A DNA stretch of 64,000 bases from Asparagopsis taxiformis (Eukaryota > Rhodophyta > Florideophyceae > Bonnemaisoniales > Bonnemaisoniaceae): assembly GCA_030407315.1 (NCBI GenBank), contig JALQPE010000192.1:124001-188000 (forward strand), written 5' to 3'. Within the stretch, counting starts at the first letter, position 1. Each line of letters opens with the position of its first letter. The translations under genes and the position numbers were made by a program. This document shows positions 1,923-36,672 of the stretch, piece after piece. Under the pieces are notes generated by a model that had not been told where the DNA came from, did no database searches, and saw only the letters and a list, made by a program, of their open reading frames with translations.

Positions 1923-1956
1923 CGTCTGTGTTCTCGGAAATGGACGCGGACGTCCA
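1923..1956 (+). repeat. Left terminal inverted repeat of element 1
   Basis: A 34-bp repeat beginning CGTCTGTGTTCTCGGAA and ending in the GGACGTCC palindrome context. It matches the reverse complement of 23263-23296 at 32 of 34 positions. The next 150 bp repeat the motifs GGACGTCC and CTAGTA, likely transposase-binding motifs (inference). Confidence 0.9.
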
Positions 1957-3650
1957 CAACCTCTAGTACACCTAGTATTACTAGGCGGACGTCCATGTTC
2001 TCCAGTATTTTTGGATGTCCGCCTAGAACCGGACGTCCATGTGGTCTAGTACGTCTAGTATTACTAAGGCGACATTCATTGTTTCTAGTACCACGGATGT
2101 CCCCCTCGGGATGGACTTCCGCCATGTCTATGTCCACCTAGGACGGGCGCCGGTTCAGAAATTCAAAAATTTCGAGCCCAGAAATTTCTGCCGCCGTGCT
2201 CGACATGGATGTCCGCATCCATCACGGCGACCACTCTATTTTTCCTTGTCGGTCGACTCCAATTTCGTCTTTAATTTTTTCATCCTCTCGCTCACACCCC
2301 CTTCCAGTTGGTGCTCACCTCCTCCGTACTGTACCTCAAACACCCCCAATACCACTCTAGCACGCATTTTTAGCTACCTATCCCCGCTTCCACGGTGCAC
2401 ACCTCCATTCCATACCTACTTTTCTGCTCTACCGTACAGATTTCGTATAACCAGTCCTCATACTACCTCAGAATAGGGCAAAAACACCCCCTATCTCCTC
2501 GACCATGCTCTCCCCCATCACCTTTGCAACGTATTGTTCTTCAATACCCTCTCTCCTCTACCTTCAACCCCTCTCCTTCGCCCTCTCCACAAACTTCCCC
2601 TGCAGCTTACTCTTCCAAAACCTCTCAGTCCCCATCCCGTACCCGACCTGCTCCACCCCTCCCTCCCTCAGCTGCTCCATGCCCCCACGCCATCCGCATC
2701 TTCGATACCGTATACACCACCACAACTGGCCCACGCTCCCGCTCCCCCGCCGTCTCCCCAGAAACCTCCCCGCTCTGAAACACATATCAACCCCCCACTT
2801 CGCACCCTTCCTCCCACTCCCCTCCCTCCCCAAATACAATAACCCCCTTCTTCTCCATCACATCCCCACTCACCACAGCCAGAACAGACGCCACCCCCCT
2901 TCCCGCCTCTTTCTCCTCACTTTCCTAAAAACCCCCTCCTCTCGGCGCCTTCAACCGCACCCTCCTACGGTCCCACCTAAACACCTCCTCCGCCCTCACT
3001 ACCCCAACACCCCGCAGCGTCTCCCAAATCCCCATAATATGCTTTTCGGCACTCCTCTCCGAATCACACTCCATTCTAAACCCGCACTCCGTACATTTCC
3101 ACCTCCCCCTGTACCATCCCAGGATTCCATCCCCCTTAGAACACATCCTCATACCACAGAAGAATTTTCTTCCTCTCATACCTCATCCTTGAAACCTCCA
3201 TCTCCTCCATGTAAATTTCGATGTAAATATTTTCTCCACTATGCAATCTCAAACATGTATGAGCCTATGCCTTTCCGCTTTGTCAACCCTGAATATTGGT
3301 ACTCATGTATTCATAAAATAGGGCCACCCACATCCCTATCCCGTTCTGCAAGCTTTACAAACCACTAGACGCATACTCCAGAACTATACAACAAACACTA
3401 CTCGCTATTTCAGACGACGCGGTACACAAGTAGCGTAGTCTCAACCTTCCGTGCAGCCTTCCCTGATGCGTACAAGTGCGAAACACGTCTAGACTACTAC
3501 TACTACGATATAGTATATCAGAAGTGACTGCTGGAATTTTCGGCACAGGAGATGCTGGGCCACCAAATTGATTTTTCGGAAATTTTAGAATTTCTGGGCT
3601 GGCCAGCAATGCAATCGAGCTGGACATCCACCGGACGTCCATTTCAGGTT
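1957..3650. other. Left subterminal region of element 1
   Basis: About 1.7 kb with strong strand asymmetry: the plus strand from about 2230 to 3200 is very pyrimidine-rich. It is nearly collinear with 35260-36930 of element 2, with small indels. The long plus-strand ORFs here are proline/serine-rich translations of the pyrimidine tract and I do not call them genes. A possible zinc-finger exon lies on the minus strand at 2925-3179. The end of the region (3560-3655) is a partial copy of the subterminal repeat described at 3834-4050. Confidence 0.7.
2925..3179 (-). CDS. Possible zinc-finger exon
   Basis: A short minus-strand ORF of about 84 codons with a WKCTECGF...ECDSERSAEKHIMG segment: a CxxC pair, a third Cys and a His as in a degenerate zinc finger, followed by a basic tail (RWDRRRVRLK). 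A counterpart occurs in element 2 (36149-36466), with several amino-acid changes but the same Cys and His. No start or splice context is convincing, and the plus strand is pyrimidine-rich, so chance is possible. If real it may be one exon of a DNA-binding protein of the element. Confidence 0.25.
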   Translation of the reverse strand: MRGRKFFCGMRMCSKGDGILGWYRGRWKCTECGFRMECDSERSAEKHIMGIWETLRGVGVVRAEEVFRWDRRRVRLKAPRGGGF

Positions 3651-3833
3651 GGTCGTGAGAGAGCGGGGCGGGACCATGATGGAACAAGGACCAAGACCTG
3701 TCCCTGGCGTATTGAGCCTGAAATTGACCCTTCGTCAGACGCCATTTAGCCTTACAGTTGGTGCTTACAGAAGCCAGTGATAGCCCCGATCGGGGCCGGC
3801 GGTCGGTTCCTGGGGCCGTTGTGGCCAAATTAG

Positions 3834-4050
3834 ACACCCTGATTTGAATTAAAATTTGGGCTATTCTCAAAAACATGCACATGTGAACATGTTTTTGAGA
3901 TGGGGGTGTGCCGTACGGCACAATCGACCGCCCAAATCGATGTTTTTTGCAATATTTTTTTGTGCCCGAAATTGTAGAATTTCTGGGCCGGCCAGGAATG
4001 CATTTGAGCTGGACATCCACCGGACGTCCATTTCAGGTTGATCGTGTATC
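3834..4050 (+). repeat. Subterminal repeat copy with two hairpins
   Basis: First complete copy of a roughly 215-bp repeat. In order it has: CACCCTGATTTGAATT; an imperfect palindrome with 12-bp arms (CTCAAAAACATG / CATGTTTTTGAG); the palindrome GTGCCGTACGGCAC; an A/T-rich tract; a TTCTGGGC...GGCCAGC block; and GGACATCCACCGGACGTCC. The last block resembles the transposon termini. A conserved lead-in of about 80 bp (GGGGCCGTTGTGGCCAAATTAG) precedes several copies. Confidence 0.8.
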
Positions 4051-4313
4051 GTGCACGTCCACCCATTACCAGAAGCAAGTTGGCGATGAAGCACGTATAA
4101 ACCCAATTGTTCTGCTATTTCTAGCATAGACCATCGAGTCTAGAGATGTGAGGGAATCGTCCTGGAATCATGCTCCAACCCACTAGGGAATGGACAATCT
4201 AGTTTGAAAGCATGGAACGGAAGTGCATTATAGTAGGTTCATAGATTGAAAGTGATAAAGGAGATGATTATATTCTCGATAATTGTTTGCTAAAGTAGTT
4301 GTTGTTAAGATAT
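4051..4313. other. Intergenic sequence downstream of the dioxygenase gene
   Basis: No ORF of interest. Part of it (about 4230-4313) is conserved downstream of the same gene in element 4 (63670-63750), consistent with a 3' untranslated region on the minus strand. Confidence 0.5.
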
Positions 4314-7300
4314 CTAGCCGTCGGAAAACTGTTCTTCCTCTTCGTCCTCACTATGATAGTGAACTAGATATCCAGGTTGTCCCGGCAGAAGAGGCACTAA
4401 CGGGGCCCCACTCCGTGTGTGCATTACATCCTTGCGAGGTTCTGTCGTCTTCATCCGCATCATTCGGAGCTGCCCTGTCTTCGGCCTACCATCTTTCTTG
4501 ACCGGGATGGGAACAACTGTCTTGTGGCGAACATTGACAGGTGCCGGTTGACTTTGCCTTGCAGACCGGCGCGGAGCATTGGCGATTACTTCTTCTTCGA
4601 ATCCCAACCGCCTGATGAAACCAAACGAAACATTGTCGGGAATCGGATACGACGCATTCCTGAAATAAGTGTGATACCTCGTTGTCGTGTGTGACACAAC
4701 TCTGTCGACATGCCCTGACCCGGCATGTTGTACATGGCCGTGACGGATGAAGACTGAACGTGGCGGAACGATTACCTTCTTCAGCTTCATCGTCTTGGCG
4801 TACATATCTAATTCCAGCGCTTTGGAAAAGACGTACTTGTGGGACCCTGGACACACCCAGATAGGGAATGGGTCATCTCCGTTGGCAATAACAAAGTAAC
4901 CCGGAAGTTGATCTTTGCGGTCGCGAGGAGGAACAGGGAAATCATTGTGTGGGACCTGCCGAGGACACCCCTTTCCCGTTATCAAAAACCGTCCCCCAGA
5001 TGCCGGCATGACAAGTTTTTCTCCCGCTAAACCGCACTCCTCCAGCCCTATCAGCCGGACAAGGATTCCCAGCCACACATCCAGCAGGGCTCGTCGCGTC
5101 ACAAACTTGAACCGGTCGGTATGCGTCTCGTCGTTCTCTGCATAGTCAACCAGGCACTGGCGTGTAGACGTGAAGCGAGCCCTCCCCTCATTCCGGTTCT
5201 TCTCATCTGTTTCATCGTCCCCTGTATTGACAATGGGACTCCACAGCTGCCGGTTCCCAGGGTCCTTGTGCACCTCCTCACCCTCCCACGTTCCCAAAAA
5301 GTACCCAAACAATTCCTGGTTAGGAATTTCTTCCATGAGACCCAAGTCAAATGGGAACTTGTCCGACGCATCGAGGTAGCTTACATCCGCGAAATTGTGC
5401 ATCACCGTATACCCTCGCTCGTTGATTTCCGTTCGGCAATTGTGGAAGTACGCCATACCAGTGCCGGCCTCATACGAATCCTTCCAGCTTGTAGACATTC
5501 GCGCAACCTGGGCGAAGTCCAGCCTCGAGGGTAGAAACGTCGATGTAGGCTCACACATCGCCTTGGCAGCCATCTTCCACGCTGCGAAGAACATCGGATA
5601 GACGTGATCGATTTCGAATAGCATACGAGCCCGATGTTCTTCCGGAATATGCAGCCCCTCAAACACAGGGTCCATCGCCACTTGCTTCAAATACCTCACC
5701 TCTCTGCCCTCCTCATCGATTTCCACACTCTCCAATAACAACCTGAGCTCAATCGGGGGCAGACAGCCAACCCTCACCGATGCGATGACATCCGCGGGAC
5801 GCTGCGCCAGATGATGCCCTTCGGCTCGGTCTTCGAAATCGTCAGGAAGAGACGGCATACGGTCGTCGAAGAGGAGGTCGTCTTCAGAAGGAGAGTCACG
5901 AACGATGTAACCGTCTTCATCGACTTCCACTCCTTCCGGAACAGTGAATGTAATTGTCACTTCGCGGACCCCCTTGCTTTCGACTTGGCCCTCGTCTGCA
6001 CCCTGTTTGTCTTCCTCGTCCGAAGCGGTATGGACAGATTCTTGGTTGGAGGGAGTCGCACCAGCACGTTGGTTATCTTGGGGGACAATCTCAACGGCAG
6101 AATCGGGGGAATGGGCGGAGTCTTCGTCAACCTCATCACCGGAAGCAGTGGCTTGTTGTTGATCGGTGGGTTTATCAACAACGGCCTGCTCTTCTTCCCC
6201 GGCGGATTGTTGTACCACAACCGGCTCTTCTTCCTCGAGGCGTGTGCTCCCCGTCGAGCGAAGTCGCTGTGAACGGCGGCGGAGGCCATGCGAAGCAGGC
6301 TCATGTTCGACATTCCGCTGCTTCTTGTGAGTGAGTCTCACATTGGCAGCAGAAGGGCGGCGTTTGCGTCGAGCCTTAGTCTTCTTCTTCAATGTCGGAT
6401 TGAAAAACTCTTTCAAGTTCGTTTCCAAATCCTGTAAACGCGTGGTTCTCCGTCGCATTCGAACCTCACTGCTCCGGTCGTCCCCTCTATACATTGCAAT
6501 GGCATTGGTGAGATGCCATTGCAACTCCTTCGGCTGCTTAACCGACCCAATTGCCATCTCTGTGCTCAGAAATGACTTGCGCATAATACTCTTTGGGCGC
6601 CCAAACGCAGCGTACAGAGAATTTGCTATTGCAGTCACGCGACGGACGTATGTATAAAAGTCGTTCACGTCAAAGCGTCCATCCGGACGTCCGCCATGAG
6701 CAGGGTTCAAGTACTCCGAAAGACCACGCAAGACGAAGACAAAGTTTTCTTCCAGCAACTCGCGCACTATCTTGTGGTCCAGGTGCGTTATCCCAATCTC
6801 GTTGCGGCGCTCGGAATTGTTCAGCTCACGCAACACGTCGTCGAGAACAGGATGCTTCAGCGTTGCTATAGCCAAACGCGTCCACCGCCGAGCCGTGTTC
6901 GTCGAATTCATCATCCCCATGAACTGCGCCTCGAACAATGTTCGGATGACATCAGACTCACGCAAGTCGCCAGCGTTTTCCACGTTGTTTGCAACAGCAA
7001 TCGTACGGATGAACTGCTGGATGGACGACAAGATTCGAACCAGGGAGCGCTCCGTCAGTTGCGTCCCAGTCGTATGGTTCGACTCTGCACTCTTGTGGAT
7101 GATCTCATGAGGCTGGAGATCACTGTCGTCCTTGCGGCGAAGGTAGTACACATCCAGAGGCTGAGTAACCCAGCGCAAGCGGTTTGCCTCCTGTGGCAGC
7201 TTGGTTCTGTGCATACGGGTGAGGCGCGTGAAGTCATCCGCAATGCTATGCATAGCATTGAGACGATGCAGTCCGTCGATCACGGTCACGTTCGCATTGG

Positions 7301-8246
7301 CATGGAATTTGCCATTCTGGAACAGACGCGTGTCGGCGGGCAGATGCGTGTTCTGCGACCTCAGCACCGTCACAGTGATACGCGAAGAGCTCACATACCC
7401 CACAGCCAACATATTGTTGCGCAGGTCCTCCACGTGGTCTTCTTTCACATCCCGAAGGGTCACGGCCGGTTCCACTAGCTGCCTCACCAACACAGTCGCT
7501 CCTTCTCCGACGTAATCCGACGTCACAAACTTGGGCACCATAATTTGCGTCCCCTGCTGCTCACGAATGCTTTCCGCCACCTCCGGTTCGTCGTCCACCT
7601 CGGTTACGTCCTGCGTAGTAGCTTCGGTGACGTTGGAGCGAGCAGGGTGCTTCGTGCCTCCACTGGAGGCTCTGGCAGAGCGAGCAGGGCGCTTCGTGCC
7701 TCCCGAAACCGGGACGGAGCGTGCTGGATGCTTCGTACCCCCCGAACCAGTGATTTCGCCTGCTGGACCGGTACTGGGCATCCGTCCCGAGCTGGCCTGG
7801 TTCGTCGCTGCGTTGAAGTTTGACGCTGCAGCAGGGGTACGAATGTCGCTAGAGCCATCCTCCGCAGCGGGGCGCATCATCCGAGTATCCCAAGGGTAAA
7901 ACGCCGCGGCGTATGCTCCACCCATCGTCTCCGGCGGTCCCTCGGCGCCATCAAACATGTACGGGAACGGGAGGTCCTTGAACTTGTCCTTAGTCGCAAT
8001 GTTGCGCACGACGATATAGTCCGCCTCGTCGGTTTCCGGCAGCTTGTGGTTGTGCAGCGTGCGCGGAAGGCCAACATCGCCACCAGCAGTGCTCACCGAA
8101 GCCGTCCCAATATGCACAGCCGCACCGTCCACGTCCGCAAACAAGTCGACATCGACGCCGCGCTTGAGTCCGCGCGACTCCGCTGACGCGCTCACTTGAT
8201 CGCCGCAAACCGTTGAAAACAAACTGCTGAAATGCGTATCCGCCAT
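4314..8246 (-). CDS. ParB-like domain / 2OG-Fe(II) dioxygenase fusion protein
   Basis: Intact 1310-residue ORF. The start is the ATG at 8246 (MADTHFSS); an in-frame extension to 8429 looks like leader sequence. The N-terminal 240 residues are low complexity, with three GTK(H/R)PARS basic repeats. Residues about 245-420 resemble a ParB/sulfiredoxin-type domain, with VIDGLHRLNAM matching its D-G-x-H-R-x-x-A motif, followed by an alpha-helical stretch to about 560. Residues 600-850 are charged linker. Residues about 860-1215 form a double-stranded beta-helix dioxygenase: HND metal motif near 1098, distal His in HGHVQHAG near 1169, 2-oxoglutarate-binding Arg in RYHTYF near 1188. This pattern fits nucleic-acid-modifying dioxygenases such as TET/JBP, which fungal transposons are known to carry. 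The substrate is inferred, not shown. Acidic C-terminus. A decayed second copy is at 60121-63664. Confidence 0.8.
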   Translation of the reverse strand: MADTHFSSLFSTVCGDQVSASAESRGLKRGVDVDLFADVDGAAVHIGTASVSTAGGDVGLPRTLHNHKLPETDEADYIVVRNIATKDKFKDLPFPYMFDGAEGPPETMGGAYAAAFYPWDTRMMRPAAEDGSSDIRTPAAASNFNAATNQASSGRMPSTGPAGEITGSGGTKHPARSVPVSGGTKRPARSARASSGGTKHPARSNVTEATTQDVTEVDDEPEVAESIREQQGTQIMVPKFVTSDYVGEGATVLVRQLVEPAVTLRDVKEDHVEDLRNNMLAVGYVSSSRITVTVLRSQNTHLPADTRLFQNGKFHANANVTVIDGLHRLNAMHSIADDFTRLTRMHRTKLPQEANRLRWVTQPLDVYYLRRKDDSDLQPHEIIHKSAESNHTTGTQLTERSLVRILSSIQQFIRTIAVANNVENAGDLRESDVIRTLFEAQFMGMMNSTNTARRWTRLAIATLKHPVLDDVLRELNNSERRNEIGITHLDHKIVRELLEENFVFVLRGLSEYLNPAHGGRPDGRFDVNDFYTYVRRVTAIANSLYAAFGRPKSIMRKSFLSTEMAIGSVKQPKELQWHLTNAIAMYRGDDRSSEVRMRRRTTRLQDLETNLKEFFNPTLKKKTKARRKRRPSAANVRLTHKKQRNVEHEPASHGLRRRSQRLRSTGSTRLEEEEPVVVQQSAGEEEQAVVDKPTDQQQATASGDEVDEDSAHSPDSAVEIVPQDNQRAGATPSNQESVHTASDEEDKQGADEGQVESKGVREVTITFTVPEGVEVDEDGYIVRDSPSEDDLLFDDRMPSLPDDFEDRAEGHHLAQRPADVIASVRVGCLPPIELRLLLESVEIDEEGREVRYLKQVAMDPVFEGLHIPEEHRARMLFEIDHVYPMFFAAWKMAAKAMCEPTSTFLPSRLDFAQVARMSTSWKDSYEAGTGMAYFHNCRTEINERGYTVMHNFADVSYLDASDKFPFDLGLMEEIPNQELFGYFLGTWEGEEVHKDPGNRQLWSPIVNTGDDETDEKNRNEGRARFTSTRQCLVDYAENDETHTDRFKFVTRRALLDVWLGILVRLIGLEECGLAGEKLVMPASGGRFLITGKGCPRQVPHNDFPVPPRDRKDQLPGYFVIANGDDPFPIWVCPGSHKYVFSKALELDMYAKTMKLKKVIVPPRSVFIRHGHVQHAGSGHVDRVVSHTTTRYHTYFRNASYPIPDNVSFGFIRRLGFEEEVIANAPRRSARQSQPAPVNVRHKTVVPIPVKKDGRPKTGQLRMMRMKTTEPRKDVMHTRSGAPLVPLLPGQPGYLVHYHSEDEEEEQFSDG

Positions 8247-8429
8247 GGTTGTTGAGTTGGAAAGGAAAAGAGATGGTTGACGTTGACGTATTCGAGTGAT
8301 GTGGATGGTATGTTTCACGTTAAGTTGAAGAATGGTCGTGAACGCCAATCGCTGGAAATAATAACACAATACAACCGAAATTTTGTTAGGTACACACCTA
8401 TCGTGACCGCTGGAATGCAAGACAGGCAA

Positions 8430-8589
8430 TCGAGATGTGAGTGTCCGTTCAGAACGGGCCCGAGTCGGGCTCTCGAAACCTGACGAGGTGGCGTGAAGCA
8501 GGCAGTGTCCTTGATGTGTAATGTGTTAAAATTACAGCTGTCAAGCTAGGCGGCTTTTGGGGCGGCTGCGAGCACCCCTTTATCCGGGG
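8430..8589. other. Upstream region of the dioxygenase gene
   Basis: Presumed promoter side of the minus-strand gene. I see no clear TATA box or other signal. It leads directly into a subterminal repeat copy. Confidence 0.3.
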
Positions 8590-8810
8590 AACACCCTGAT
8601 TTGAGTTAAAATTTGGGCTATTCTCAAAAACATGCACATGTGAACATGTTTTTGAGATGGGGGTGTGCCGTACGGCACAATCGACCCGCCCAAATCGTTG
8701 ATTTTTTACAATTTTTTTGTGCCCGAAATTTTAGAATTTCTGGGCTGGCCAGCAGTGCATCTGAGATGGACATCCACCGGACGTCCATTTCAGGTTGGTC
8801 GTGTGCTGCC
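8590..8810 (+). repeat. Subterminal repeat copy
   Basis: Second full copy of the repeat at 3834-4050, same orientation, with both hairpins intact. It starts after CCCGGGGAACACCCTG, without the usual GGGGCCGTTGTGG lead-in. Confidence 0.8.
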
Positions 8811-9094: not shown

Positions 9095-9302
9095 CCCTGA
9101 TTTGAATTAAAATTTGGGCTATTCTCAAAAACATGCACATGTGAACATGTTTTTGAAATGGGGGTGTGCCGTACGGCACAAACGACCCGCTGAAATCGTT
9201 GATTTTTTACAATTTTTTTGTGCCCGAAATTTTAGAATTTCCGGGCTGGCCAGCAGTGCAATCGAGCTGGACATCCACCGGACGTCCATTTCAGGTTGGT
9301 CG
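9095..9302 (+). repeat. Subterminal repeat copy
   Basis: Third full copy, same orientation. It is preceded by the lead-in (9000-9094) that includes CTTACAGAAGCCAGTGA and GGGGCCGTTGTGGCC. The hairpin arm has one change (TTTTTGAAATGG). Confidence 0.8.
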
Positions 9303-9394
9303 TGAGAGAGTGGGGTGGGACCATGATGGAACAAGGACCAAGACCTGTCCCTGGCGTATTGAGCCTGAAATTGACCCTTTGTCAGACGCCATTT

Positions 9395-9650
9395 AGCCTT
9401 ACAGTTAGTGCTTACAGAAGCCAGTGACAACCCCACTCGGGGCGGCGGCCAGTGCCTGGGGCCGTTGTGGCCAAATTAGACACCCTGATTTGAATTAAAA
9501 TTTGGGCTATTCTCAAAAACATGCACATGTGAACATGTTTTTGAGATGGGGGTGTGCCGTACGGCACAATCGGCCGCCCAAATCAAGGTTTTTTACAATA
9601 TTTTTGCTGCCCGAAATTCTACAATTTCTGGGCTGGCCAGTAATGCATTA
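9395..9650 (+). repeat. Subterminal repeat copy, truncated
   Basis: Fourth copy with its lead-in (9395-9480). It stops after the TTTCTGGGCTGGCCAG block at about 9645 and lacks the GGACGTCC end. Unique sequence follows. Confidence 0.75.
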
Positions 9651-10754
9651 GCTATGTGCTCTAAACCGATTCTAACAAGCAGAAAGAATCCACTCCTTCA
9701 TGACGATGCTCTCGAATTGAGTGCAATGCAACGGACTCCCTCCAGGAGAACGACAAAGCATCGTCTTTTGCAAGACATTTTCGTACGAAAAATAATCGAA
9801 ACACATATTTGACTTTAACCTAACAGCTATCGCGAGCACCGTACTCAGCTAAATTTCCTCTGTAATTTCCTTCCTCCAACCAATCAATAGCCGCTTGGTC
9901 ACAGGCTTAAAAGCCTTCCACTATTTGTCCTATCCATCGAAGAGGGTTCGATCCAGGCCTTGATGGGTGTGGAACCCGAGAACTTGAAAATGGAACATAT
10001 TGCGACAGAGATGAGATGTCATTCTCTTTCGTTTACTTTTTTCTAACAAGATTCTAAACGTCTACGCAGCGGAACGAACCCAATGTCGTCCGTCCGTTTT
10101 CAGCCCGGTGAGATGTTTTTGCCATTAACGGAGGTGGAGGCGGCTATGGAGGAAGCCTGCGGTTCGGGTATTCTTTCCATTAACGGAGGTGGAGGTGGCG
10201 GCTATGGAGGAAGCCTGGAGAACATGTGAGATGTCAGTACCCATGGATCACAAGAAAAACATGTAGAGGTCCAGTTTGGATATTGTTGCCATTAACGGAG
10301 GCGGAGGAGGCGGCTACGGAGGAAGCCTGGATAACATGTGACTCACATCTTGGAGATGTCAGTACCCATGGATGAGAAGAAAGCATGTTGAGGTGCGGTT
10401 CGGATATTCTTTCCATTAACGGAGGCGGAGGAGGCGGCTACGGTGGAAGCCTGGAGAAGAATAGAATAGTCCTATACCCATGGATCACAAGTAGACGTAG
10501 TTGGGCTCCTTTTCGAAGCCCATTCGTCTCTTGAATAAATTTAGCACCCAAATCATATACGATTGCCGAGTTGACACCCCGTATGTCTCGTTGGTAGAAA
10601 TAGCAGGGGTTCCACCACTCAGCTGGCGGGAAGTAGTTACTGATTATATGAGATATGGCTTAGCTCCCGCCAAAACCGATAGCTCTGGGCTCAGGTTCTC
10701 CAAATGTGGTTATACGAATGTGTTCTGACAATGGTAGAAGACGAATATCTGCAT
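9651..10754. repeat. Unique spacer with four Gly-rich-coding direct repeats
   Basis: No convincing gene. Four copies of a 38-45-bp G-rich repeat begin with CATTAACGGAGG at about 10121, 10177, 10290 and 10413. Read on the plus strand the core encodes I-N-G-G-G-G-Y-G-G-S-L with a variable number of Gly codons. The last three copies are spaced 113-123 bp apart, and the spacers share TACCCATGGAT and AAACATGT motifs. I see no long reading frame connecting them; they could be remnants of repeated exons. Confidence 0.6.
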
Positions 10755-10935
10755 CCTGATTTGAATTAAAATTTGGGCTATTCTCAAAAACATGCACATG
10801 TGAACATGTTTTTGAGATGGGGGTGTGCCGTACGGCACAATCGACCGCCGAAATCGATGTTTTTTGCAAAATTTTTTCTGCCCGAAATTGTAGAATTTCT
10901 GGGCTGGCCAGCAATGCATCTGAGTCGGACATCCC
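10755..10935 (+). repeat. Subterminal repeat copy
   Basis: Fifth copy, same orientation, with both palindromes. It ends at GGACATCCCCACGTCC, so its terminal block is diverged. It lies upstream of the methyltransferase gene and may hold or flank its promoter. Confidence 0.75.
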
Positions 10936-11268
10936 CACGTCCAGTGGCCGTCCGGATGTCGCTCACCTGGTAAGCGTGAGGCACCTGTGACAACCTATGT
11001 GACTGGCGGCCTTGCAGTACAACACTCAAAGGCAGGGAATCACAATCTTTTTAAAATTTTTTCTCTACCACGTATCCGTCACAACTTATTACCTACACCG
11101 GTTACGGGTTTCAAGACCTTTCCAGTGCTGTGTACCCGTATACTCTGTTCCGTTCGATATCAACCAGTGTTCCTCACGAAAGAGTGCAAACGTCACGAGA
11201 TACGTCGTCAAATTTGACTGTCTCGCCGAGCGGTCGCCATCCTGTACCGAATTTCCACTCATTCCATT

Positions 11269-14200: not shown

Positions 14201-14468
14201 AATTTGGATTGTTCCGGCTCCGTTCTGTTCGGCGCAGTTCATCAACGACCCGCGGTATTTGCGAGGTGAGGACACTCCGGCGGAAGACACCAGGCGGATG
14301 GCCAACGTCGAGTTTGTCGAGAACTACAGCAGCGGTTCGACGGGGAAGAAGCTCAAGGCGAAGGACCTAGAAAATCCGAAGATCATTGTAGTACGTGCAA
14401 TCCGCGATATCCGTCCGGGGCAGGAGCTCTACGTTCATTATGGGACAGCGTTTAGAGCATGGAATTAG
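11269..14468 (+). pseudogene. Beta-class DNA amino-methyltransferase fused to SET domain, one frameshift
   Basis: About 1065 residues from the ATG at 11269. The first frame stays in a protein-like phase until a T-run near 11700, after which the sensible reading continues one frame over to 14468. One missing base in this run would explain the shift; a tiny intron or recoding is possible. TDPPYN (about residue 506) is the catalytic motif of N6-adenine or N4-cytosine methyltransferases. Motif I, DPFSGTFATGKAA (about 744), follows it, which is the beta-class order. Between them lies an acidic, low-complexity insert (13020-13130) in the target-recognition region. From about 902 comes a SET domain: AGRGLFA, FINDPR...NVEF and GQELYVHYG, as in protein-lysine methyltransferases; no Cys-rich post-SET is visible. 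The predicted role is writing DNA and protein methyl marks. DPPY favours adenine, but N4-cytosine is not excluded. Confidence 0.8.
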
Positions 14469-14689
14469 GGTCACGAAAGATGTTTTCATTTCGACTACAA
14501 ATAAAGCTACGTTCCAGAGTTGAAGTATATCATATAATGCAGAATGTCCAGCCACCATTAGTCCAGGGTGAAACCTATTGAGCAGTACTCGCCTGTCAAA
14601 AACCAATCGTTCACACTCTAGGTGCACTTCGTCCGAGCAGTGAACCTGACTGCTTGGTTGCTGTTATGCGTGCAGATGCAAAATACAAG
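14469..14689. other. Downstream region of the methyltransferase gene
   Basis: Short A/T-rich stretch with AAATAAAG near 14500, a possible polyadenylation signal shortly after the stop codon. No other feature seen. Confidence 0.4.
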
Positions 14690-14905
14690 ACCAAGTTGAA
14701 ATGGACGCCCGGTGGATGTCCAGCTCAGTTGCATTGCTGTCCAGCCCAGAAATTCTACAATTCAGGGCAGAAAAAAATATTGCAAAAAACATCGATTTCA
14801 GCGGGTCGATTGTGCCGTACGGCACACCCCCATCTCAAAAACATGTTCACATGTGCATGTTTTTGAGAATAGCCCAAATTTTAATTCAAATCAGGACGTC
14901 TTCCG
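14690..14905 (-). repeat. Subterminal repeat copy, inverted
   Basis: Sixth copy, in the opposite orientation to the others. It lies between the methyltransferase and coiled-coil genes and keeps both palindromes. Because the repeat is inside the element as well as near its ends, it may regulate the genes rather than serve only as a transposition site (inference). Confidence 0.8.
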
Positions 14906-15128
14906 GACATAGGGGTGCTCGCGGCCTAGCTCTACAGCTGTAATTGTACCTCAATAAATACTGTTGATGACTGCCTACCGTATACAATCTGGGCTGTTGG
15001 CGTATTCTCCGGTACTTGACCTGACCTGAACGTTCATCGCAGACCGTTGTGGTTACCGACACTATACAGCAATCTTTTTTGTATCTCGTGCAACTCAATC
15101 CTTCCATCGCTTCCGGGAAGGCTTCATT

Positions 15129-17414
15129 ATGCCGCCGCGTATTGCGAAGAAAGCTCCAAAGCCTCCGGGCCTCCAGAAAACCCGGTCAGCAGCTGCTGTA
15201 TCGAGTGCCCGACAATCCCGTGCGAAGAAGCGGTCTGGGCCTACCGGCAGCATTGAACCGCGGTCCGGTAGTCGCAAGACGGACCGGCGCAGAACTGGGG
15301 ATCCGCAGCGAGAAAGTGAGGAAGGAGGAACGGCGCGGAGAGAGATGGGGCTTGACCGAGGCAAGCGTGCTCGCAGGGACAGTGAACATCATGATGATGA
15401 CATGATAGTGGCTCAAAACATGTTGGAATTGCGGCAGAGTGCTATGGCAAAGGTAGTTCCTCCCGGGTTGGCAGATGCGGAGGTGCTGCAGACGGAGTCC
15501 CAGCCGGGGGTTCGCGAGACACTGGAGGCTGTGACCCCCACTGCGCCAACTATGCCGAGTACATCAGCCCCAGCAGGTAATGCAGTCGGGGACCCGAGGA
15601 TAGCGGCAAGGGATGTTGTTTCTGAGCAACGTTCACAGGATGCCAACTATCATCGGCGGTCAGGTGGTACTGAGGGGAGAGAGCAGCCGGAGTGCGGGCC
15701 TCGTCACAACAGACTGTCATTGGTGCCAAATATGCGCGTAACGCCCCCGCGACGTCAGGCTATTGCCGATGGAGGACATCATATTCCCGATAGCGTGGGA
15801 GATGGGGGGACGGTGAGGGCAGAGAGGTTGCATCCGCCGGAATCCATCGATTTAATGGCGAGTCGCATCAATGCGCAGAAGAAGAAGATCGCGGAGCTGG
15901 AAAAAAAAGTGTTTAGCCAGGACATAGCAAACAAGGCGCTCACCACGGAGATAGTTGCGTTGGAGGCTAAGGTGAAGACTCTGCAGGCGGAAAATGCCAG
16001 CCTTACTGCAATTGCGAGAACAGGTAGAATCAGTGATCACGGTGGCGGTAAGTCGAACATACAGAAAGCCATTCCTGTGAAATACCTTGGAGTTCTTAGG
16101 GCGGTTGAGGAAAACCTGACAAAGTGGTGCAAGAACGAGACTATGGAGCTGGACCCTATAGCGGAACAAACGCAGAGACGTTGGACTGGACGTACCATCG
16201 AGGTAGAGCCGGTAGAAGGGACACTTTGGAGCGAAAACGGTGTAGGATATATTGCTACCCCTCCGGGCTATATCATCAAGAATCTGCAGTGGTATACACC
16301 TTCGTACAGAGACGAGAGTGATCTGCTGAATGACTTGGTGCGACACGTACTGCGTCAAAGTCCGTGGTGTGATGTGTTTTCCGATGAGGAGCAGCGTGTG
16401 TGCTGTCAAGAGGCTGTGGCGGGGAGCAAGGAATTGAAAGTGAAGGTGACGCAGAAACTGTCCGACGTGATGAGTGCACGGAAGCGTAATGCGAGGGACA
16501 GATTGTTCGGTTCGCTGGGGTACACGAAATTAATGTCTAGATGCACGACGCTGACGACGCGAGCTGAGATGGACGAGCGAGAGGATCAAAAGCGCGAAGC
16601 GTCTGAGAAGCTTTTGAAACGGGAAAGCAACGGTGATTTGGATATGGGGAGGTGGCGAACGGCACCGTTCTCAGAGCTGCGATACAGCAAAGGCATGGTT
16701 CCTGACAGCTTCGAAATGGAAGTGAATGGTGATGCATGGTTTAACAACCGAGTAGCTGTGAATGTGCTGGACATCTTCAGGGGTTATTCGATACGACCAG
16801 AACAAGTAATGGACATAGAGACGAGCATACTAACGCTGGCGCGCCTGGATGCTTGGCTAGTGACTACTGTGGAGTGTTTGGATGAACCGAAGGGGAAAGG
16901 AGGTGCACGGCAGAAGGAGTTTACAAGGCGGTACAGTCAATATGTGGGGGTAGCTTTTCAGCAATTAGTTGGTATGGTGGTGTACTGCATGTCTTGTCTC
17001 CAAGGCTCGCAAGCAAGGGAAGAAACGGACGTTGTCGAGAGCGAACAGCGGACTAGTGCACAGTCACGGCATGTGTTTGCAAGCCGTACTGTGACGAGAG
17101 AGGCTGTTGAAGTGTGGCAAAGCGGAGAGGGGTCTGGAATTGTTCATGTCGTTGATGATGTAAACCGCTGCTCATCACTTGTTCTAGTGTCCGAGGATTG
17201 GATTCAATCGCATATTACGTCAAACCTCGGTGCTGTAATGGATTGTGTGATTGCGCAAGGACTAATTGGCGCAGAACTTTTCGTCGTTGACCCATATGCT
17301 GGACACCTGAGTGCAAACCTGAATGTCGAAATCAATGCCCCACAGTATGGGGGCATGGAGCGGCGCCATGCAGCCACTGCTGATAACGGTTTTGGCGTAA
17401 TGGAGGATGGTTGA
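15129..17414 (+). CDS. Coiled-coil protein of unknown function
   Basis: Intact 761-residue ORF starting at the ATG of MPPRIAKKA. Residues 1-235 are Pro-, Arg- and Ser-rich with basic patches, probably disordered and perhaps nuclear. Residues about 241-297 form a clear heptad coiled coil (KKKIAELEKKVF...LEAKVKTLQAEN). Residues 310-761 look globular, with conserved-looking Trp/Cys/Tyr but no motif I recognise. The region around 440-500 is highly charged and helical. It is co-oriented with the methyltransferase gene, 660 bp downstream, and converges on the transposase gene with 77 bp between stops. Possible roles are an accessory transposition protein or a structural partner of the modifying enzymes; neither is shown by sequence. 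Confidence 0.7.
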   Translation: MPPRIAKKAPKPPGLQKTRSAAAVSSARQSRAKKRSGPTGSIEPRSGSRKTDRRRTGDPQRESEEGGTARREMGLDRGKRARRDSEHHDDDMIVAQNMLELRQSAMAKVVPPGLADAEVLQTESQPGVRETLEAVTPTAPTMPSTSAPAGNAVGDPRIAARDVVSEQRSQDANYHRRSGGTEGREQPECGPRHNRLSLVPNMRVTPPRRQAIADGGHHIPDSVGDGGTVRAERLHPPESIDLMASRINAQKKKIAELEKKVFSQDIANKALTTEIVALEAKVKTLQAENASLTAIARTGRISDHGGGKSNIQKAIPVKYLGVLRAVEENLTKWCKNETMELDPIAEQTQRRWTGRTIEVEPVEGTLWSENGVGYIATPPGYIIKNLQWYTPSYRDESDLLNDLVRHVLRQSPWCDVFSDEEQRVCCQEAVAGSKELKVKVTQKLSDVMSARKRNARDRLFGSLGYTKLMSRCTTLTTRAEMDEREDQKREASEKLLKRESNGDLDMGRWRTAPFSELRYSKGMVPDSFEMEVNGDAWFNNRVAVNVLDIFRGYSIRPEQVMDIETSILTLARLDAWLVTTVECLDEPKGKGGARQKEFTRRYSQYVGVAFQQLVGMVVYCMSCLQGSQAREETDVVESEQRTSAQSRHVFASRTVTREAVEVWQSGEGSGIVHVVDDVNRCSSLVLVSEDWIQSHITSNLGAVMDCVIAQGLIGAELFVVDPYAGHLSANLNVEINAPQYGGMERRHAATADNGFGVMEDG

Positions 17415-17491
17415 AATTAGTGCAGTAAATGTGACGTTGACTAGAAGGCTTATCATGTAGTACATTATCAATAGAGTGCTGCGATTTAGAT

Positions 17492-20400
17492 TTATTCTTC
17501 TTCATTATCATCTGTGAACTGGTAATCAGTGTTGGTGTAGAAGCGGTTGAGATAGAAACGGTGGTCCGACCAGTGCATTTGTTTCGTAAATGGCTTGACT
17601 GGAAAGTTACTTCGTACGATGTGCACGGTGCCAGATATAGTAGATGCAGGAATGAGGTCAAACCAAGGACCACCTGCACTGTGGGATGCAGTGTCATTGC
17701 TGTCAACGGATCCGTTGTCCGGGTCCCATGTGGACCACTTTAAACAAATGCACCCAAGTGATTTTTCCACAGCGGTTTTTGGGGCAAAGCAGGTCATATA
17801 CTGAACGAAAGCGAGTTCTACAGGTTGAAACAGGTTTGGAGACTGCAGGCGTACCAGTGCCAGGACGCGCCCTACCCATATGGTTCTGTAGTCATCGGCA
17901 GTTCCGGAGATGACGACAAAGGAGTACTGCGATCTCTTTGCGGGGCCGAATGATGAAGTTGCAAAGACGCGCTGCTGCTTGTGCCTCGACACGTTTGTGG
18001 GGCGAAGCATGCCACTGTGCGGGTCAAAGTCGTCGGCATCTGGGACGTACCCTCCCATGACGTAGGCGGACTTTACCACGGTGACGGAAATGTCCATGTC
18101 ATGTATTGGAGGGCCTTCTGCCGTGGCGCGCAGTCTAGCGAGGGTGAGGAACGCTTGTGCAGCTGTGTCACCGAGTTGCTGGAATAGCGTTATGGTGCCA
18201 GACGGGAACGAGGAGTTGTGCAGAGGCAAAAGAGTGGCAGGATCGGGCTGTCCGTCGATATCTGCAACGAGGAGGGTTGCATCCGGCAGCAGGGAGGCAA
18301 AGTCGTGCAGTGCAACGGTGAATCCGTCGCGAACGAGTACTGCACCGTCTGTGGGCGATATCATGCGTGGGTTTCCCAATTTGTTCGATGGGGTGTGACC
18401 AGTTGGAGTGGCCAAGGAGAATTCCATGTGGCGAATAGTCTCTTCCATGGCTGTGGAGCGCCTTCGAGAGGTTTTCCTATAACTCTGTTTGAACAGAAGA
18501 TGCGAGTGTTCGTAAGGGCCTGCATCAATATGTTCCAGGGCGCCATATCTCTGCAAGTCACCGGGAAGATGGTCTAGAAGATGGAACTTGAAAGTTTTGA
18601 GACCTGTGGTGTGGAATGGGCCGAGGGTGGAGAGCATTGATTGTTTGAAATAGGAAATGGAGTTTTGGAGGCTTTCTAGTTCGGCGGCAGTCCAGTGCTT
18701 GATGCGACCGCGTTTCATGACCCATGCGACGAGGTCAGAGTATTGCGTGCAGATGGAAGTGAGGGGGGCTGTATCTACTTCGTCACAGCATGTGTCAATG
18801 AATGCTGCGATGAAAGGGAACACCATGTCGACATGGTGATAGTCTTTGGCTGCGAGCATGCCGCGTATGCCGTCCTCCGTGAAGAGGCCGTTCAAATTGG
18901 TGCCCTTCTCACCCTTGGAGAAGTCGACATGAAGACCGGTGATGTAGTAGTCGCGTTCGATAGCGGACAGAATGCTGTTTGAGCCGGCGAGGATGGATTT
19001 TTTGACCTTCTTGAAGGTGCGAGGTGTCCCGGAACGGGAGGCAGTGGTGGTGGTGAGGTCTGGGGAGCTGAGGCGGTGGACAATGCACTGTTTGATGAGC
19101 TTTGAGATGCCGAGGTGGAGATTGTGCAGAGGCTCGAAGGAGAAAATGTTGTAGGGGTCTAGGGGACTGTTGGTGGGTAAAAGAGCGGTCGATTCGAGGA
19201 CAGAGTGTTGTTCGAGGAGGGAGAGAGCTTCGAGCGGAGCAGTTGTATGCTCCTGAGCGCTCTCTTGGCGTGCAGAGCGTGTATCATCGAGGGAGCGGGG
19301 CTGGTGTGGCGCGCTGGATTCAAGTTGAGTGGCGGGGATGTAGCAGCGGTGGCAGGGATGTGTGGTGGTAGTGCTGTTGCGAGTGCATGACAGCTCTTTG
19401 GCCTCTGGAAAGTCGCAGCAATAATTGGCTAGGATGGGAAAGCATTGGCGGGCAGTTGCAGTGGAGTCTGTGCAGGGGAACCCGGAAGAGAACGCGGTGG
19501 ATAGGGACGAAAACACTTTTTCGAGTGCTTTATGAAGAATATCAATTTTGCGAGCGCGACTAGCAGAACTAGAGGTTGTCGGCATTTCATCACCGAACAA
19601 GGCGTTGGACGAAGGGTTAACAATGTACGGAAGATACCCGACGATGGTGAGGCCGGTACGGATGCAGTGGCGACGGAGGGGGGCGGAGAAGTTGAGCAGT
19701 GTGACGTGTATGGGGTATGCGACGATTGCGGAGCTCTTGAGGCTTGTGCTGCTCTTGTCGGAGTACACTTGGAGGAGGCCGGCAAAGGAGGAAGGTGTGG
19801 GATCAGTTTCCTCTGCCCATACGACCTGTGGATCTTCCGAGAGCTGCACGCGCTGTCTAGTAACCTGGTGCAGCGTTTTCGCGAATTCTGTGTGTAGGGG
19901 ATGAGAAAATATTGCGGTGCCGTCTGGGGCGGTCTGTGGGGAGGGGTGGAAGAGAGTATTTTGGTCGTTAGCCAGTGCTAACTGCCTGCGGAGCATGTCG
20001 ACTGGGTCGCGGAGGTACAGCTGTGCCGAGTACTTACCAGTTTTGTCTGGAATGATGTGGCTCTTGTAACCTTCGGTGCGGAAATGTGTTTCGACCATGG
20101 AAGCGGTAACGTGGCGACATTCTTCTACGGTGCGAACGGCGCTGTTGAACTTTTCTAGGGAGAATGCGGGGTCTTGTAGGATGGTGATGACTTCGCTCAC
20201 GCGGCCAGCGCCGGCCTTGTACTCGAGGGTTGTGAGACTGGCGGCGAGGGATTGCACGAGGAGGTCTGCGCGGGAGGGGGTTGAGGTTGGTGGCAGTGGA
20301 GCGTCACAGGGTGAGTCGCTGGAGGAAGCACGACAAGATTCTGGGTCTGGGGAGCTGGGTTGCGGGGAATCATGGTCGCCGTTTCGAGCAGGCTCATGGG

Positions 20401-20725
20401 TGACGGCAGGGACACGAGCGTTGTTGAAATGTTGGGGAGAGGGGTTGAAACGGTAGCGACACGTTCGCTCATGCAGCGCGAGCGCATAAGCATCTACGCA
20501 GTAGTAGAAACACCCTTCATACTTGCATTCCATGTCGAGTTTTGACGCAAAAGGGAGGATTGCGAGCTGAACAGGGGAGACTGGTGCCGTCCAGATGCGA
20601 CCAATTTTATTTTTGTGGTGCTTTCGAGACTTGGAATGTAACGTGTTCGTTCGTAGTTTTGTGGGTAGTAGTTTTGTGCTCACTCCAGCTGACATCCCAA
20701 CGGTGGAATTTAACCGAGACTTCAA
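17492..20725 (-). CDS. Plavaka-like (CMC superfamily) transposase
   Basis: Intact 1077-codon ORF. The N-terminus has a C-x4-C...H-x4-C zinc finger (residues about 67-89: CKYEGC...HERTC). The core resembles fungal Plavaka transposases: YSDKSSTSL near residue 322, with a likely catalytic Asp, followed by YPIHVTLLNF and IVGYLPYI, then QCFPILANYCCDFPEAKEL and CHRCYIP, and EPLHNLHLGISKLIKQCI near 530-545. I recognise these from the family and could not align them here. The start may be 20725, or the ATG at 20533 directly before the zinc finger: the first 40 or so codons overlap sequence (20600-20815) retained in element 2, which lacks the rest of the gene. It would act in the nucleus on the element's terminal repeats. 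Confidence 0.78.
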   Translation of the reverse strand: MKSRLNSTVGMSAGVSTKLLPTKLRTNTLHSKSRKHHKNKIGRIWTAPVSPVQLAILPFASKLDMECKYEGCFYYCVDAYALALHERTCRYRFNPSPQHFNNARVPAVTHEPARNGDHDSPQPSSPDPESCRASSSDSPCDAPLPPTSTPSRADLLVQSLAASLTTLEYKAGAGRVSEVITILQDPAFSLEKFNSAVRTVEECRHVTASMVETHFRTEGYKSHIIPDKTGKYSAQLYLRDPVDMLRRQLALANDQNTLFHPSPQTAPDGTAIFSHPLHTEFAKTLHQVTRQRVQLSEDPQVVWAEETDPTPSSFAGLLQVYSDKSSTSLKSSAIVAYPIHVTLLNFSAPLRRHCIRTGLTIVGYLPYIVNPSSNALFGDEMPTTSSSASRARKIDILHKALEKVFSSLSTAFSSGFPCTDSTATARQCFPILANYCCDFPEAKELSCTRNSTTTTHPCHRCYIPATQLESSAPHQPRSLDDTRSARQESAQEHTTAPLEALSLLEQHSVLESTALLPTNSPLDPYNIFSFEPLHNLHLGISKLIKQCIVHRLSSPDLTTTTASRSGTPRTFKKVKKSILAGSNSILSAIERDYYITGLHVDFSKGEKGTNLNGLFTEDGIRGMLAAKDYHHVDMVFPFIAAFIDTCCDEVDTAPLTSICTQYSDLVAWVMKRGRIKHWTAAELESLQNSISYFKQSMLSTLGPFHTTGLKTFKFHLLDHLPGDLQRYGALEHIDAGPYEHSHLLFKQSYRKTSRRRSTAMEETIRHMEFSLATPTGHTPSNKLGNPRMISPTDGAVLVRDGFTVALHDFASLLPDATLLVADIDGQPDPATLLPLHNSSFPSGTITLFQQLGDTAAQAFLTLARLRATAEGPPIHDMDISVTVVKSAYVMGGYVPDADDFDPHSGMLRPTNVSRHKQQRVFATSSFGPAKRSQYSFVVISGTADDYRTIWVGRVLALVRLQSPNLFQPVELAFVQYMTCFAPKTAVEKSLGCICLKWSTWDPDNGSVDSNDTASHSAGGPWFDLIPASTISGTVHIVRSNFPVKPFTKQMHWSDHRFYLNRFYTNTDYQFTDDNEEE

Positions 20726-21300
20726 TCATTTCCAACTGTTACATCACATTGCGTGCTGGCAACGTGTGCATGGAAGGACGAACGACTGCCCTGGGAGATG
20801 AATTTTCAATTAATTCATTTGTAATAATAAACTTTTTTATTTCTGAACTTCGTGGAATCTGAATGTGCTTTACAGCGGATATGCCACGGATCATGTAAGG
20901 AAAGCAAATGGATTCTCATATATATGATTATATGTTTATATTCGTTGTTCTCGATCCGGATCTCATTGTTCGGGGAATCAGTGACCATGGCTTGGGCCAT
21001 ACTCAATCTCACTGCCGGCGATGATTTCGAGTATGCACAGAAAGACTTAAGCGGACGCTGAAAGCTGTCCGGTCGACGCCGCAGGCTCCACTCCGCCCTC
21101 ATCACCGACTGATATTCTTTGACCGACTTTGCTTTGTACGTGCGCGAATCTTGATCAAGATTCGCGCACGTACCTTCGTTCCATCCTCTACCCTCGAGGG
21201 TATGCGTTGAGGGAAGCGTGGGTTTTGAGTCTGACTATTTCCGTTGATGCGATATTTTTCATGGGAAGCCTGTTGACTGATGGTGTGTATTAAGCGGAGG
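20726..21300. other. Region between transposase start and micro-exon array
   Basis: Conserved in element 2 (about 44380-44830). It contains an A/T-rich stretch at 20805-20840, a possible promoter for the minus-strand transposase. An inverted repeat of about 18 bp (TACGTGCGCGAATCTTGATC and its complement) occurs at 21136-21172. No gene seen. Confidence 0.4.
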
Positions 21301-22232
21301 ATGGAAGAGAGGTACGTGAAGTTTTGAAAGTATGGTGCGAGGGAAGGTTGGTTTTGAGTCTGACTGTTGTGGTTGATTCCAATGTTGTGTAGATGATGCA
21401 GGAATGTTGATGACGGAAGGTAAGTTTCATTGAGTGCCAAGATGTGCTTTGCGAAGATATGGACTGCTGACTATGATTATTATTCATTGCAAGGTTTTTG
21501 GATCATGGTTTGTATTGTGTGTAGGATGGATGAGAGGTACATTTGCGAGTTCTCAGGGTATGTAGCGAGGGAAACGTTGGTTTTCAATCTGACTGTTGCG
21601 ATTGATTCCGATGTTGCGTAGGTGATGGAGGAATAGTGATGACGGAAGGTAAGTCACATTGGGCGCCCAGACCGGTTGTGCGAAGATGCGGAATGCTGAC
21701 TACTTTTCTTGGCTACACGATTACGTGATTTATGGTTTTTATTGTGTGCAGGGTGGAACAGGTAAGGTAAGTGTGCGAGTTTTGAAAGTAAGCAGCGAGG
21801 GAAGGTTGGTTTTGAGTCTGACTATTTCCGTTGATGCGATATTTTTCATTGGAAGCCTATTGAGTCATGGTGTGTATTGTGTGGAGCGAAGGTAAGTGTG
21901 CGAGTTTTGAAAGTAAGCAGCGAGGGAAGGTTGGTTTTGGGTCTGACTGTTGTGGTTGATTCCGATGTTGTGTAGATGGTGCAGGAATGTTGATCACAGA
22001 AGGTAAGTTTCACTGAGCACCAAGACTTGTTTTGCAAAGATATGGACTGCTGACTTTGATTATTCATTGCAAGGTTTTTGGATCATGGTTTGTATTTTGT
22101 GTAGGATGGATGAGAGGTAAGTAAGGAAGTTTCTAGGATATCTGTCGTAGTAAGCGTTGCTTTTGAATCTGACTGTTGGGGTTGATGTTTTGTATGTGAT
22201 GCAGGAGTGGTGAAGCAGGAACGGCAGGACTG
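21301..22232 (+). other. Micro-exon array in element 1
   Basis: Alternating exon-like units of 27 and 12 nt between intron-like units with GTAAGT-type donors, CTGAC motifs and TAG/CAG acceptors. 27-nt units: 21393-21419, 21622-21648, 21976-22002. 12-nt units: 21525-21536, 22105-22116. A terminal unit starts at 22205. Introns are about 102-105 nt after 27-nt units and 85-88 nt after 12-nt units. All introns fall in phase 1 and the frame stays open through most units; the 27-nt unit encodes roughly DAGMLMTE and the 12-nt unit GWMR. The unit at 21752 is degenerate. The final unit meets a TGA after about 9 codons, whereas in element 2 it stays open. This is either a decayed micro-exon gene or a satellite with splice-like sequences. 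Confidence 0.55.
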
Positions 22233-22559
22233 AAGGAGAGTGAAGAAGGGATGTAGGAAGATGGGGAATGAAGCTGTGAGGTGTTTCTGGTATGTGTATA
22301 TTTTGGGGCATACGATAGAAGTGAGAGTGGGTTTCAAGTGGTGTAAGATTTTGCTGACCATGTTCGTGTTTGATGTCTTGATGATTTAATGGGCTGGGGT
22401 GGTGTCGAGGAAAGCGGGATGGAATTGGGAAGGAGCGGATTTTTTGTAATCAAGGTCGTGAGGGTTCTTGAAGTATGTGCGGATGGTGGTGCATGGCGTT
22501 CGGATGGTAGGGAGAACGCGATAGTGAGGGAGATGGGTGATCGACGATATGCTGACAGG
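22233..22559. other. Post-array region of element 1
   Basis: Nearly the same as 46200-46545 of element 2. It holds the remains of the last exon of the micro-exon array. No other gene is recognised. Confidence 0.4.
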
Positions 22560-22735
22560 TATTTTGTATTCCGGCTGGATACGTATTTCATATTCTGGCT
22601 GGATACATATTCCGTATTCTGGCTGGATACGTATTTCGTATTCTGGCTGGATACGTATTCCGTATTCTGGCTGGATACGTATTTCCTATTCTAACCGGGT
22701 ATTTATTTCCTATTCTGACCAGATATGTATTTCCT
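22560..22735 (+). repeat. 24-bp tandem repeat
   Basis: About seven units of a 24-bp repeat around TATTCTGGCTGGATACGTAT, the last units diverged (CTAACCGGGTATTTATTTCC). Element 2 has fewer units at 46545-46680, so the array varies in length between copies. Confidence 0.8.
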
Positions 22736-22865
22736 ATTCTAGAGAGACGTATTGTATACGAGCAGTTTCGTAAATGAGAGAATAAAATACGGTCCGATAT
22801 GGGCCCTGAATTTACCATCCGCTGTAATTTCTTCCCTCCCGGTTTTCGCTGATATATTGTATACT

Positions 22866-23166
22866 GGATGTCGGGTCCTAGTATTCCGCCGAACGTACTA
22901 GAGAAAGTGGATGTCGGGTCCTAGTATTCCGCCAAACGTACTAGAGAAAGTGGATGTCGGGTCCTAGTATTCCGCCATATGTACTAGAGAAAGTGGATGT
23001 CGGGTCCTAGTATTCCGCCAAACGTACTAGAGAAAGTGGATGTCGGGTCCTAGTATTCCGCCATATGTACTAGAGAAAGTGGATGTCGGGTCCTAGTATT
23101 CCGCCATATGTACTAGAGAAAGTGGATGTCGGGCCCTAGTATTCCGCCATATGTACTAGAGAAAGT
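22866..23166 (+). repeat. 43-bp tandem repeat, seven units
   Basis: Seven head-to-tail 43-bp units starting GGATGTCGGGTCCTAGTATT, each also containing GTACTAGAGAAAGT. Units start at 22866, 22909, 22952, 22995, 23038, 23081 and 23124. Element 2 also has seven. The repeats share the CTAGTA/TACTAG motif with the left end, suggesting transposase-binding sites (inference). Confidence 0.9.
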
Positions 23167-23262
23167 GGACGTCCGCATCCAAAAAAATTTTTTTTTTTCG
23201 GACGCGGACGTTCATTTGTTCTAGTAAATCTCGGGGCCGACTAGGACCCGTACTAGAGAGAC

Positions 23263-23296
23263 TGGACGTCCGCGTCCACTTCCGAAAACACAGACG
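23263..23296 (-). repeat. Right terminal inverted repeat of element 1
   Basis: Inverted match of 1923-1956. It is preceded by a tract (23167-23262) with GGACGTCCGCATCC, a run of A then T, GGACGCGGACG and CTAGTA motifs. The TT duplication follows at 23297-23298. Confidence 0.9.
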
Positions 23297-35225: not shown

Positions 35226-35259
35226 CGTCTGTGTTCTCGGAAATGGACGCGGACGTCCA

Positions 35260-36670: not shown

Positions 36671-36672
36671 CT

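Follow-up and report, generated by a model that had tools for sequence, protein, structure and literature searches.

A high-copy Plavaka transposon of a red alga that may carry its own epigenetic kit, with a DNA methyltransferase-SET fusion and a putative ParB-like/oxygenase protein

The 64,000-nucleotide window analysed here, from contig JALQPE010000192.1 of Asparagopsis taxiformis, contains at positions 1923-23296 a single DNA transposon with 34-bp terminal inverted repeats (TIRs) and a 2-bp target duplication. Beside a Plavaka transposase, the element encodes a bacterial-type DNA amino-methyltransferase fused to a SET domain, a protein that joins a putative ParB-like region to a probable 2-oxoglutarate/Fe(II) (2OG-Fe(II)) oxygenase domain, and a coiled-coil protein. 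Of the four genes, those for the transposase, the methyltransferase-SET fusion and the oxygenase-like protein evolve under purifying selection. We read the element, tentatively and with somewhat less than even confidence, as a high-copy red algal Plavaka transposon with its own epigenetic kit, which would serve self-marking and editing and not an attack on host 5-methylcytosine (5mC). Its borders and genes are the following (window coordinates; ORF, open reading frame; TSD, target-site duplication).

1923..1956, plus strand: left TIR, starting CGTCTGTG..., with TSD TT at 1921-1922
4314..8525, minus strand: ParB-like/oxygenase ORF, 1403 codons stop to stop; putative ParB-like region within about 6246-7628, oxygenase-like domain within about 4566-5978
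11218..11874, plus strand: N-terminal part of the methyltransferase-SET gene, in a frame that differs from the rest
11655..14468, plus strand: main part of the methyltransferase-SET gene; N6_N4_Mtase domain about 12771-13592, SET domain about 13995-14444
15030..17414, plus strand: coiled-coil protein, 794 codons, tail to tail with the transposase gene
17492..20725, minus strand: Plavaka transposase ORF, domain about 19100-20053
23263..23296, minus strand: right TIR, with TSD TT at 23297-23298

The borders of the element are exact. The two TIRs are identical at 32 of 34 positions and are flanked by TT on both sides, and a second element of the window with the same termini (CGTCTG..CAGACG) is flanked by TA on both sides; the target duplication is thus 2 bp. 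When the flanks were joined minus one TT, all 400 bases were matched, at 98-99% identity, at each of the 40 genomic places scored (of 318 candidates in the assembly). These matches are empty sites in repeated target sequence. A preliminary description of this DNA, made from its letters and open reading frames, had proposed one terminal-repeat-bounded element holding all four genes, and the TIRs, target duplication and empty sites bear this out. It had also proposed a genome search for the termini, which gave 1212 + 1206 occurrences of the TIR pattern (33 bases, two positions free) in the 141.5-Mb assembly of 3156 contigs, and none for a reversed control. The interrupted target (750-1922 and 23299-25281) is itself repeated, with copies of the junction at 40 other scored places and a reading frame that stays open for 1051 codons across the joined flanks.

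The transposase matches Pfam PF18759 (E = 4e-24; 85.9 bits, cut-off 26.3) and has a C(2)C motif (CHRC) at residue 458 and an H(3)H motif (HLLDH) at residue 715. Motifs of this kind are given for Plavaka by Kojima 2025 (PMC12730594; for this and the other papers cited by PMC number, statements apply to the portions of the text consulted). The 2-3 bp target duplication of Plavaka is also present, as TT and TA at two elements. The termini of PlavakaA and PlavakaB (TGT..ACA or CATCA..TGATG) were not found at the element ends and differ from CGTCTG..CAGACG, so the element is Plavaka by its transposase and falls outside both groups. Across the genome, the PF18759 search scored 123 matches among 1208 candidates.

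By its motifs, the methyltransferase is a beta-class DNA amino-methyltransferase of bacterial type. It matches Pfam PF01555 above the cut-off (E = 2.4e-15), its closest solved relative is a DpnA chain (E = 1e-13), and in the relative P0001 (98% identity) the motif DPPY at residue 507 is followed by DPFSGTF (FxGxG-type) at residue 746. The SET domain matches PF00856 (E = 7.6e-7; 30 bits, cut-off 22.4), and its profile gives weak matches to KMT2 and EZH2 chains (E = 0.0013-0.0093; KMT2B 0.0013, EZH2 0.0027). The transposase, DPPY methyltransferase and SET domain of the preliminary description are therefore confirmed, each by a Pfam match above its cut-off. The gene is broken over two frames in the window copy and forms a single open frame of 1154 codons in the copy on contig C503. 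Four further relatives (P0002-P0005) have 28-36% identity; both domains are present in P0001-P0004 (for P0001 and P0003 from precomputed Pfam calls only), and the SET match of P0005, at 19.1 bits, is below the cut-off. Between the oxygenase and methyltransferase genes, positions 10112-10494 consist of short repeats with, by eye, a glycine-rich reading.

The C-terminal domain of the second cargo protein is probably a 2OG-Fe(II) oxygenase, a name that rests on the motif HxD...H...R, whose residues H1193, D1195, H1267 and R1283 are invariant in all seven aligned sequences. The name ParB-like comes from visual inspection of the same alignment, which shows a [VI]DG.HR motif and a stretch resembling a helix-turn-helix. 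A search with the C-terminal domain found six relatives (E = 1.9e-78 to 6.2e-28), of which P0006-P0010 have 32-41% identity over the ParB-like/oxygenase protein and P0011 (699 amino acids) comes from the red alga Gracilaria domingensis. The upstream region with [VI]DG.HR is common to five of the six and missing from P0011. No Pfam family, Tet_JBP and ParB models included, was matched by the window protein, its six relatives or their consensus, and NCBIfam gave no match for the window protein. PHROGs searched with the consensus gave no ParB and, for the oxygenase part, only an 18-residue holin match (E = 0.014), and the best PDB sequences were at chance level (E = 0.76, 0.19 and 3). The ParB-like/2OG-Fe(II) dioxygenase fusion of the preliminary description thus keeps its motifs and gains no model match. 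TET/JBP membership of the oxygenase was rejected on the absence of a Tet_JBP match in the seven members scanned. A viral origin was likewise rejected for both cargo genes: viral contig scans yielded no relative of the oxygenase and, among 600 stretches listed, one 43-residue match to the methyltransferase, and the best phage matches to the two consensus sequences, ParB-like and oxygenase, had E values of only 3 and 0.5. The coiled-coil protein gave only weak coiled-coil matches below the Pfam cut-off.

Selection was estimated from the ratio of nonsynonymous to synonymous changes (pN/pS), counted as distinct substitutions against the majority base with partial copies included. The methyltransferase gave 0.17 (27 rows), the oxygenase 0.24 (11 rows), the transposase 0.33 (16 rows) and the coiled coil 0.66 (11 rows); the window and C503 copies were among those entered twice, and the loci were picked by protein score, which biases them towards conservation. 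Copies reached via another gene, compared with the window copy, gave 0.29-0.33 for two oxygenase copies and 0.20-0.22 for three long transposase copies. Methyltransferase copies reached in this way gave 0, 0.57 and 0.57 on two to three changes each, too few to tell.

The element is present in high copy. Markers of 30 bases, allowing at most two mismatches, occur genome-wide 909 times for the oxygenase, 971 times for the methyltransferase and 940 times for the transposase, with no hit for reversed controls. Among the 100 methyltransferase sites listed of these 971, 27 have both the oxygenase and the transposase marker in reach, 25 the oxygenase only and 24 the transposase only. These are lower bounds, because the listed sites are all zero-mismatch and some copies are broken off at contig ends, with 21 of the 73 incomplete sites no more than 9 kb from the start of a contig. 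At 19 linked sites with the window arrangement, the transposase marker stands at +6.86 to +6.88 kb and the oxygenase marker at -5.2 to -7.9 kb, with repeats between. Twenty methyltransferase loci cut out of the 49 scored, the window's included, all run on into neighbouring element sequence, and the copies on C503 and C110 have all four genes. The genes do, then, travel together in other copies, a point that the preliminary description had proposed to check. Deleted copies are present as well, for example at 35226-47236. An earlier co-occurrence count from the 49 methyltransferase protein matches (9 with oxygenase, 17 with transposase, 25 partnerless) is superseded by the marker counts; the 25 lacked a listed partner because each protein search scored only the best copies. 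Were every marker copy complete, the roughly 900 copies at 21 kb each would amount to near 14% of the assembly, an upper figure because many copies are truncated. In the Asparagopsis taxiformis L6 genome, DNA transposons account for 33.48% (PMC12115072).

The two cargo genes also seem to stay together in more distant relatives. The methyltransferase relative P0004 and the oxygenase relative P0008 have the same longest-contig figure (15,726), as do P0005 and P0009 (7,918), all from one source. These equal figures suggest that each pair lies on a shared contig; if so, the cargo pair has been kept together over large divergence.

Further features of the element and of the rest of the window are listed below.

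3865..3900: 36-bp imperfect palindrome (30 of 36 positions), within a 252-bp repeat
8622..8657: copy of the 36-bp palindrome
9123 (one mismatch), 9511, 10782 and, reversed, 14833: further copies of the palindrome
9096..14901: methyltransferase segment, inverted in other copies (e.g. C503), ending in inverted repeats of some 130-290 bp
22822..23216, plus strand: 43-bp subterminal tandem repeats
35226..47236: second element, same termini and palindromes, TSD TA, none of the four genes as a long ORF
60118..62679, plus strand: interrupted oxygenase gene in a third, reversed element that runs off the window

The 36-bp palindrome has six copies next to the cargo genes and seven within the non-autonomous element at 35226-47236; as a candidate binding site, it could serve the ParB-like region or the coiled coil. 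The segment that holds the methyltransferase gene is found in both orientations. The C503 order is seen in 15 of the 20 cut-out loci and the window order in five, while the 27 sites linked to both partners comprise 19 in the window order, five in the C503 order and three that are composite (C41, C81 and C164). A single inversion is not favoured, because orientation does not follow the relatedness of the oxygenase gene: a window-type copy (L037) differs by 4 from the C503-type copy on C110 and by 30 from the window copy; such a pattern could also arise by exchange between copies. Recombination between the inverted repeats is the plain reading of the two orientations, and a switch is possible. 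The 12-kb element at 35226-47236 has long internal inverted repeats and is a non-autonomous relative, apparently mobilised in trans. Beyond the third copy (59000-64000) comes a further one, in which the transposase can be aligned with small indels and without a stop; elements of this kind are nested on the contig (C192). Positions 52965-58818 hold ORFs that by eye resemble a Ty3/gypsy-type retrotransposon (protease, reverse transcriptase, integrase, chromodomain), with a CpG observed/expected ratio of 1.72. An Rfam scan of the window gave no match.

The host is a red alga, because its genome carries phycobilisome genes: 13 phycobilisome matches were found in the assembly, 11 of them on one contig (C469) beside ORFs read by eye as atpB and allophycocyanin. 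A fungal host is ruled out by these genes, and the fungal setting of the preliminary description fell with it, the Gracilaria domingensis relative of the oxygenase pointing the same way. A search of the host assembly for a C5-cytosine methyltransferase (PF00145) gave no candidate; of 14 control genomes, all named as prokaryotes, 10 were positive. 5mC is therefore the less likely substrate of the oxygenase, and a mark written by the element itself is favoured.

In the mechanism that we propose, the methyltransferase would write an amino-methyl mark on element DNA, with N6-methyladenine (6mA) more likely than N4-methylcytosine (4mC) because of the DPPY motif, and the SET domain would add histone lysine methylation. 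Together these marks would keep the chromatin of the element in a state that permits expression and transposition. A link between 6mA and transcriptionally permissive chromatin in eukaryotes is drawn in a Nature Genetics paper of 2025 (PMC12695648); the enzymes in the portions consulted are MT-A70, a class other than the one found here, and the paper names no red algae. A KMT2-like SET domain would fit this direction. The ParB-like/oxygenase protein might be recruited to the DNA of the element, with the internal palindromes as possible docking sites, and the oxygenase could there oxidise or remove the mark made by the element and so tune how often it jumps. A fuller version, which we think rather unlikely as a whole, is a self-sufficient epigenetic system: a fused writer for DNA and histones, a DNA-targeted editor of the writer's mark, a host without 5mC, and a flipping writer segment that may be an on/off switch.

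Several observations weigh against self-marking and editing. Neither the models nor the PDB sequences support the ParB-like and oxygenase folds. Where the usual SET motif is NHSC, P0001-P0003 have NDPRY, P0004 NDPKY and P0005 NDAKY; the SET domain may thus be altered, a change that by itself does not show inactivity. The coiled-coil gene is weakly constrained (0.66, and about 0.9-1.3 in copies reached via another gene), the oxygenase gene of the C110 copy lies in two frames, and 24 of the 100 listed methyltransferase sites have neither partner in reach. An assembly gap or an intron-split gene may account for the missing PF00145 candidate. Finally, the two elements have lower CpG observed/expected ratios (0.97 in this one, 0.83 in the second) than the flanks (1.59-1.66) and higher TpG/CpA values (1.13 and 1.26, flanks 0.76-0.80); mild 5mC decay could give this, in a comparison whose flanks differ in kind, being repeated coding sequence. 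Such values would suit an oxygenase that strips host 5mC to escape silencing, as proposed for fungal TET+ transposons; TET/JBP genes are found in Plavaka and other fungal transposons (PMC12730594). With no C5-methyltransferase found in the host, element CpG still near expectation and no Tet_JBP match, we consider this very improbable.

More weight, if still on the unlikely side, goes to an oxygenase that modifies a base further or has a protein substrate, such as a histone or the transposase, leaving the methyl mark in place. The invariant HxD...H...R together with the lack of any Pfam match would fit such an enzyme, as would a PGSHK-type stretch like that of phytanoyl-CoA-type oxygenases, but the ParB-like region in the same protein and the DNA methyltransferase encoded alongside speak for DNA as the substrate. 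Methylation might also serve transposition itself, a terminal mark telling replicated from unreplicated copies or blocking the transposase, a role played by Dam in some bacterial elements. The beta-class enzyme of bacterial type, kept under selection, speaks for this; the SET domain and the oxygenase would be left unexplained, and we judge it improbable. Decidedly improbable, too, is a second element or passenger module made of the two cargo genes, bracketed by inverted repeats and nested in a plain Plavaka: the 252-bp repeats do flank the cargo region, inverted at its right end, and the cargo pair seems to recur in diverged relatives, yet the same repeats stand at 35226-47236 without the genes, no second transposase is found among the ORFs, and the whole unit inserts between fixed TIRs. 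Host genes captured once, an outcome that the preliminary description had named as fatal to its idea, and useless to the element are scarcely credible. We found no point in favour, and purifying selection between copies, hundreds of copies and the recurrence of both cargo families in diverged relatives speak against it. Overall, that description is supported as regards the mobile unit, the co-occurrence of its genes, selection on three of them and the recurrence of both cargo families, and fails in its fungal setting.

Among the titles and abstract openings listed from the open PMC literature, no description of this cargo set was found. The 4mC enzyme of bdelloid rotifers is reportedly encoded by the host and not by a transposon. 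What the rotifers would have in common with our element is a bacterial-type amino-methyl mark in a eukaryote, predicted in our case (PMC8885841). Closest is the TET+ Plavaka of Agaricomycetes (PMC12730594), which likewise combines a Plavaka transposase, a 2-bp duplication and a putative DNA-base oxygenase gene. The element described here differs in its red algal host, in its termini (CGTCTG..CAGACG and not TGT..ACA or CATCA..TGATG), in an oxygenase without a Tet_JBP match, fused to a ParB-like region (the word ParB does not occur in the main text of PMC12730594), and in its DNA methyltransferase-SET fusion, which the consulted portions of that paper do not mention. SET genes are known on the DNA transposons HarbingerS and MuDR of Phytophthora (cited in PMC12730594); those belong to other superfamilies, whereas the SET domain here is fused to a DNA methyltransferase. 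The giant repeats of Amoebidium (PMC11244446) are, like our element, large Plavaka-associated units, and relatives of their genes are noted in red algae and dinoflagellates; they form tandem clusters with tyrosine recombinases, and the consulted text mentions no such cargo.

Transposons with one mark-changing gene are known; here a writer and a candidate editor occur together. In a host without a detected 5mC writer, the idea of a mobile element that runs its own epigenetic state becomes directly testable, and the published PacBio data of Asparagopsis taxiformis (PMC12115072) might already show 6mA or 4mC on these elements.

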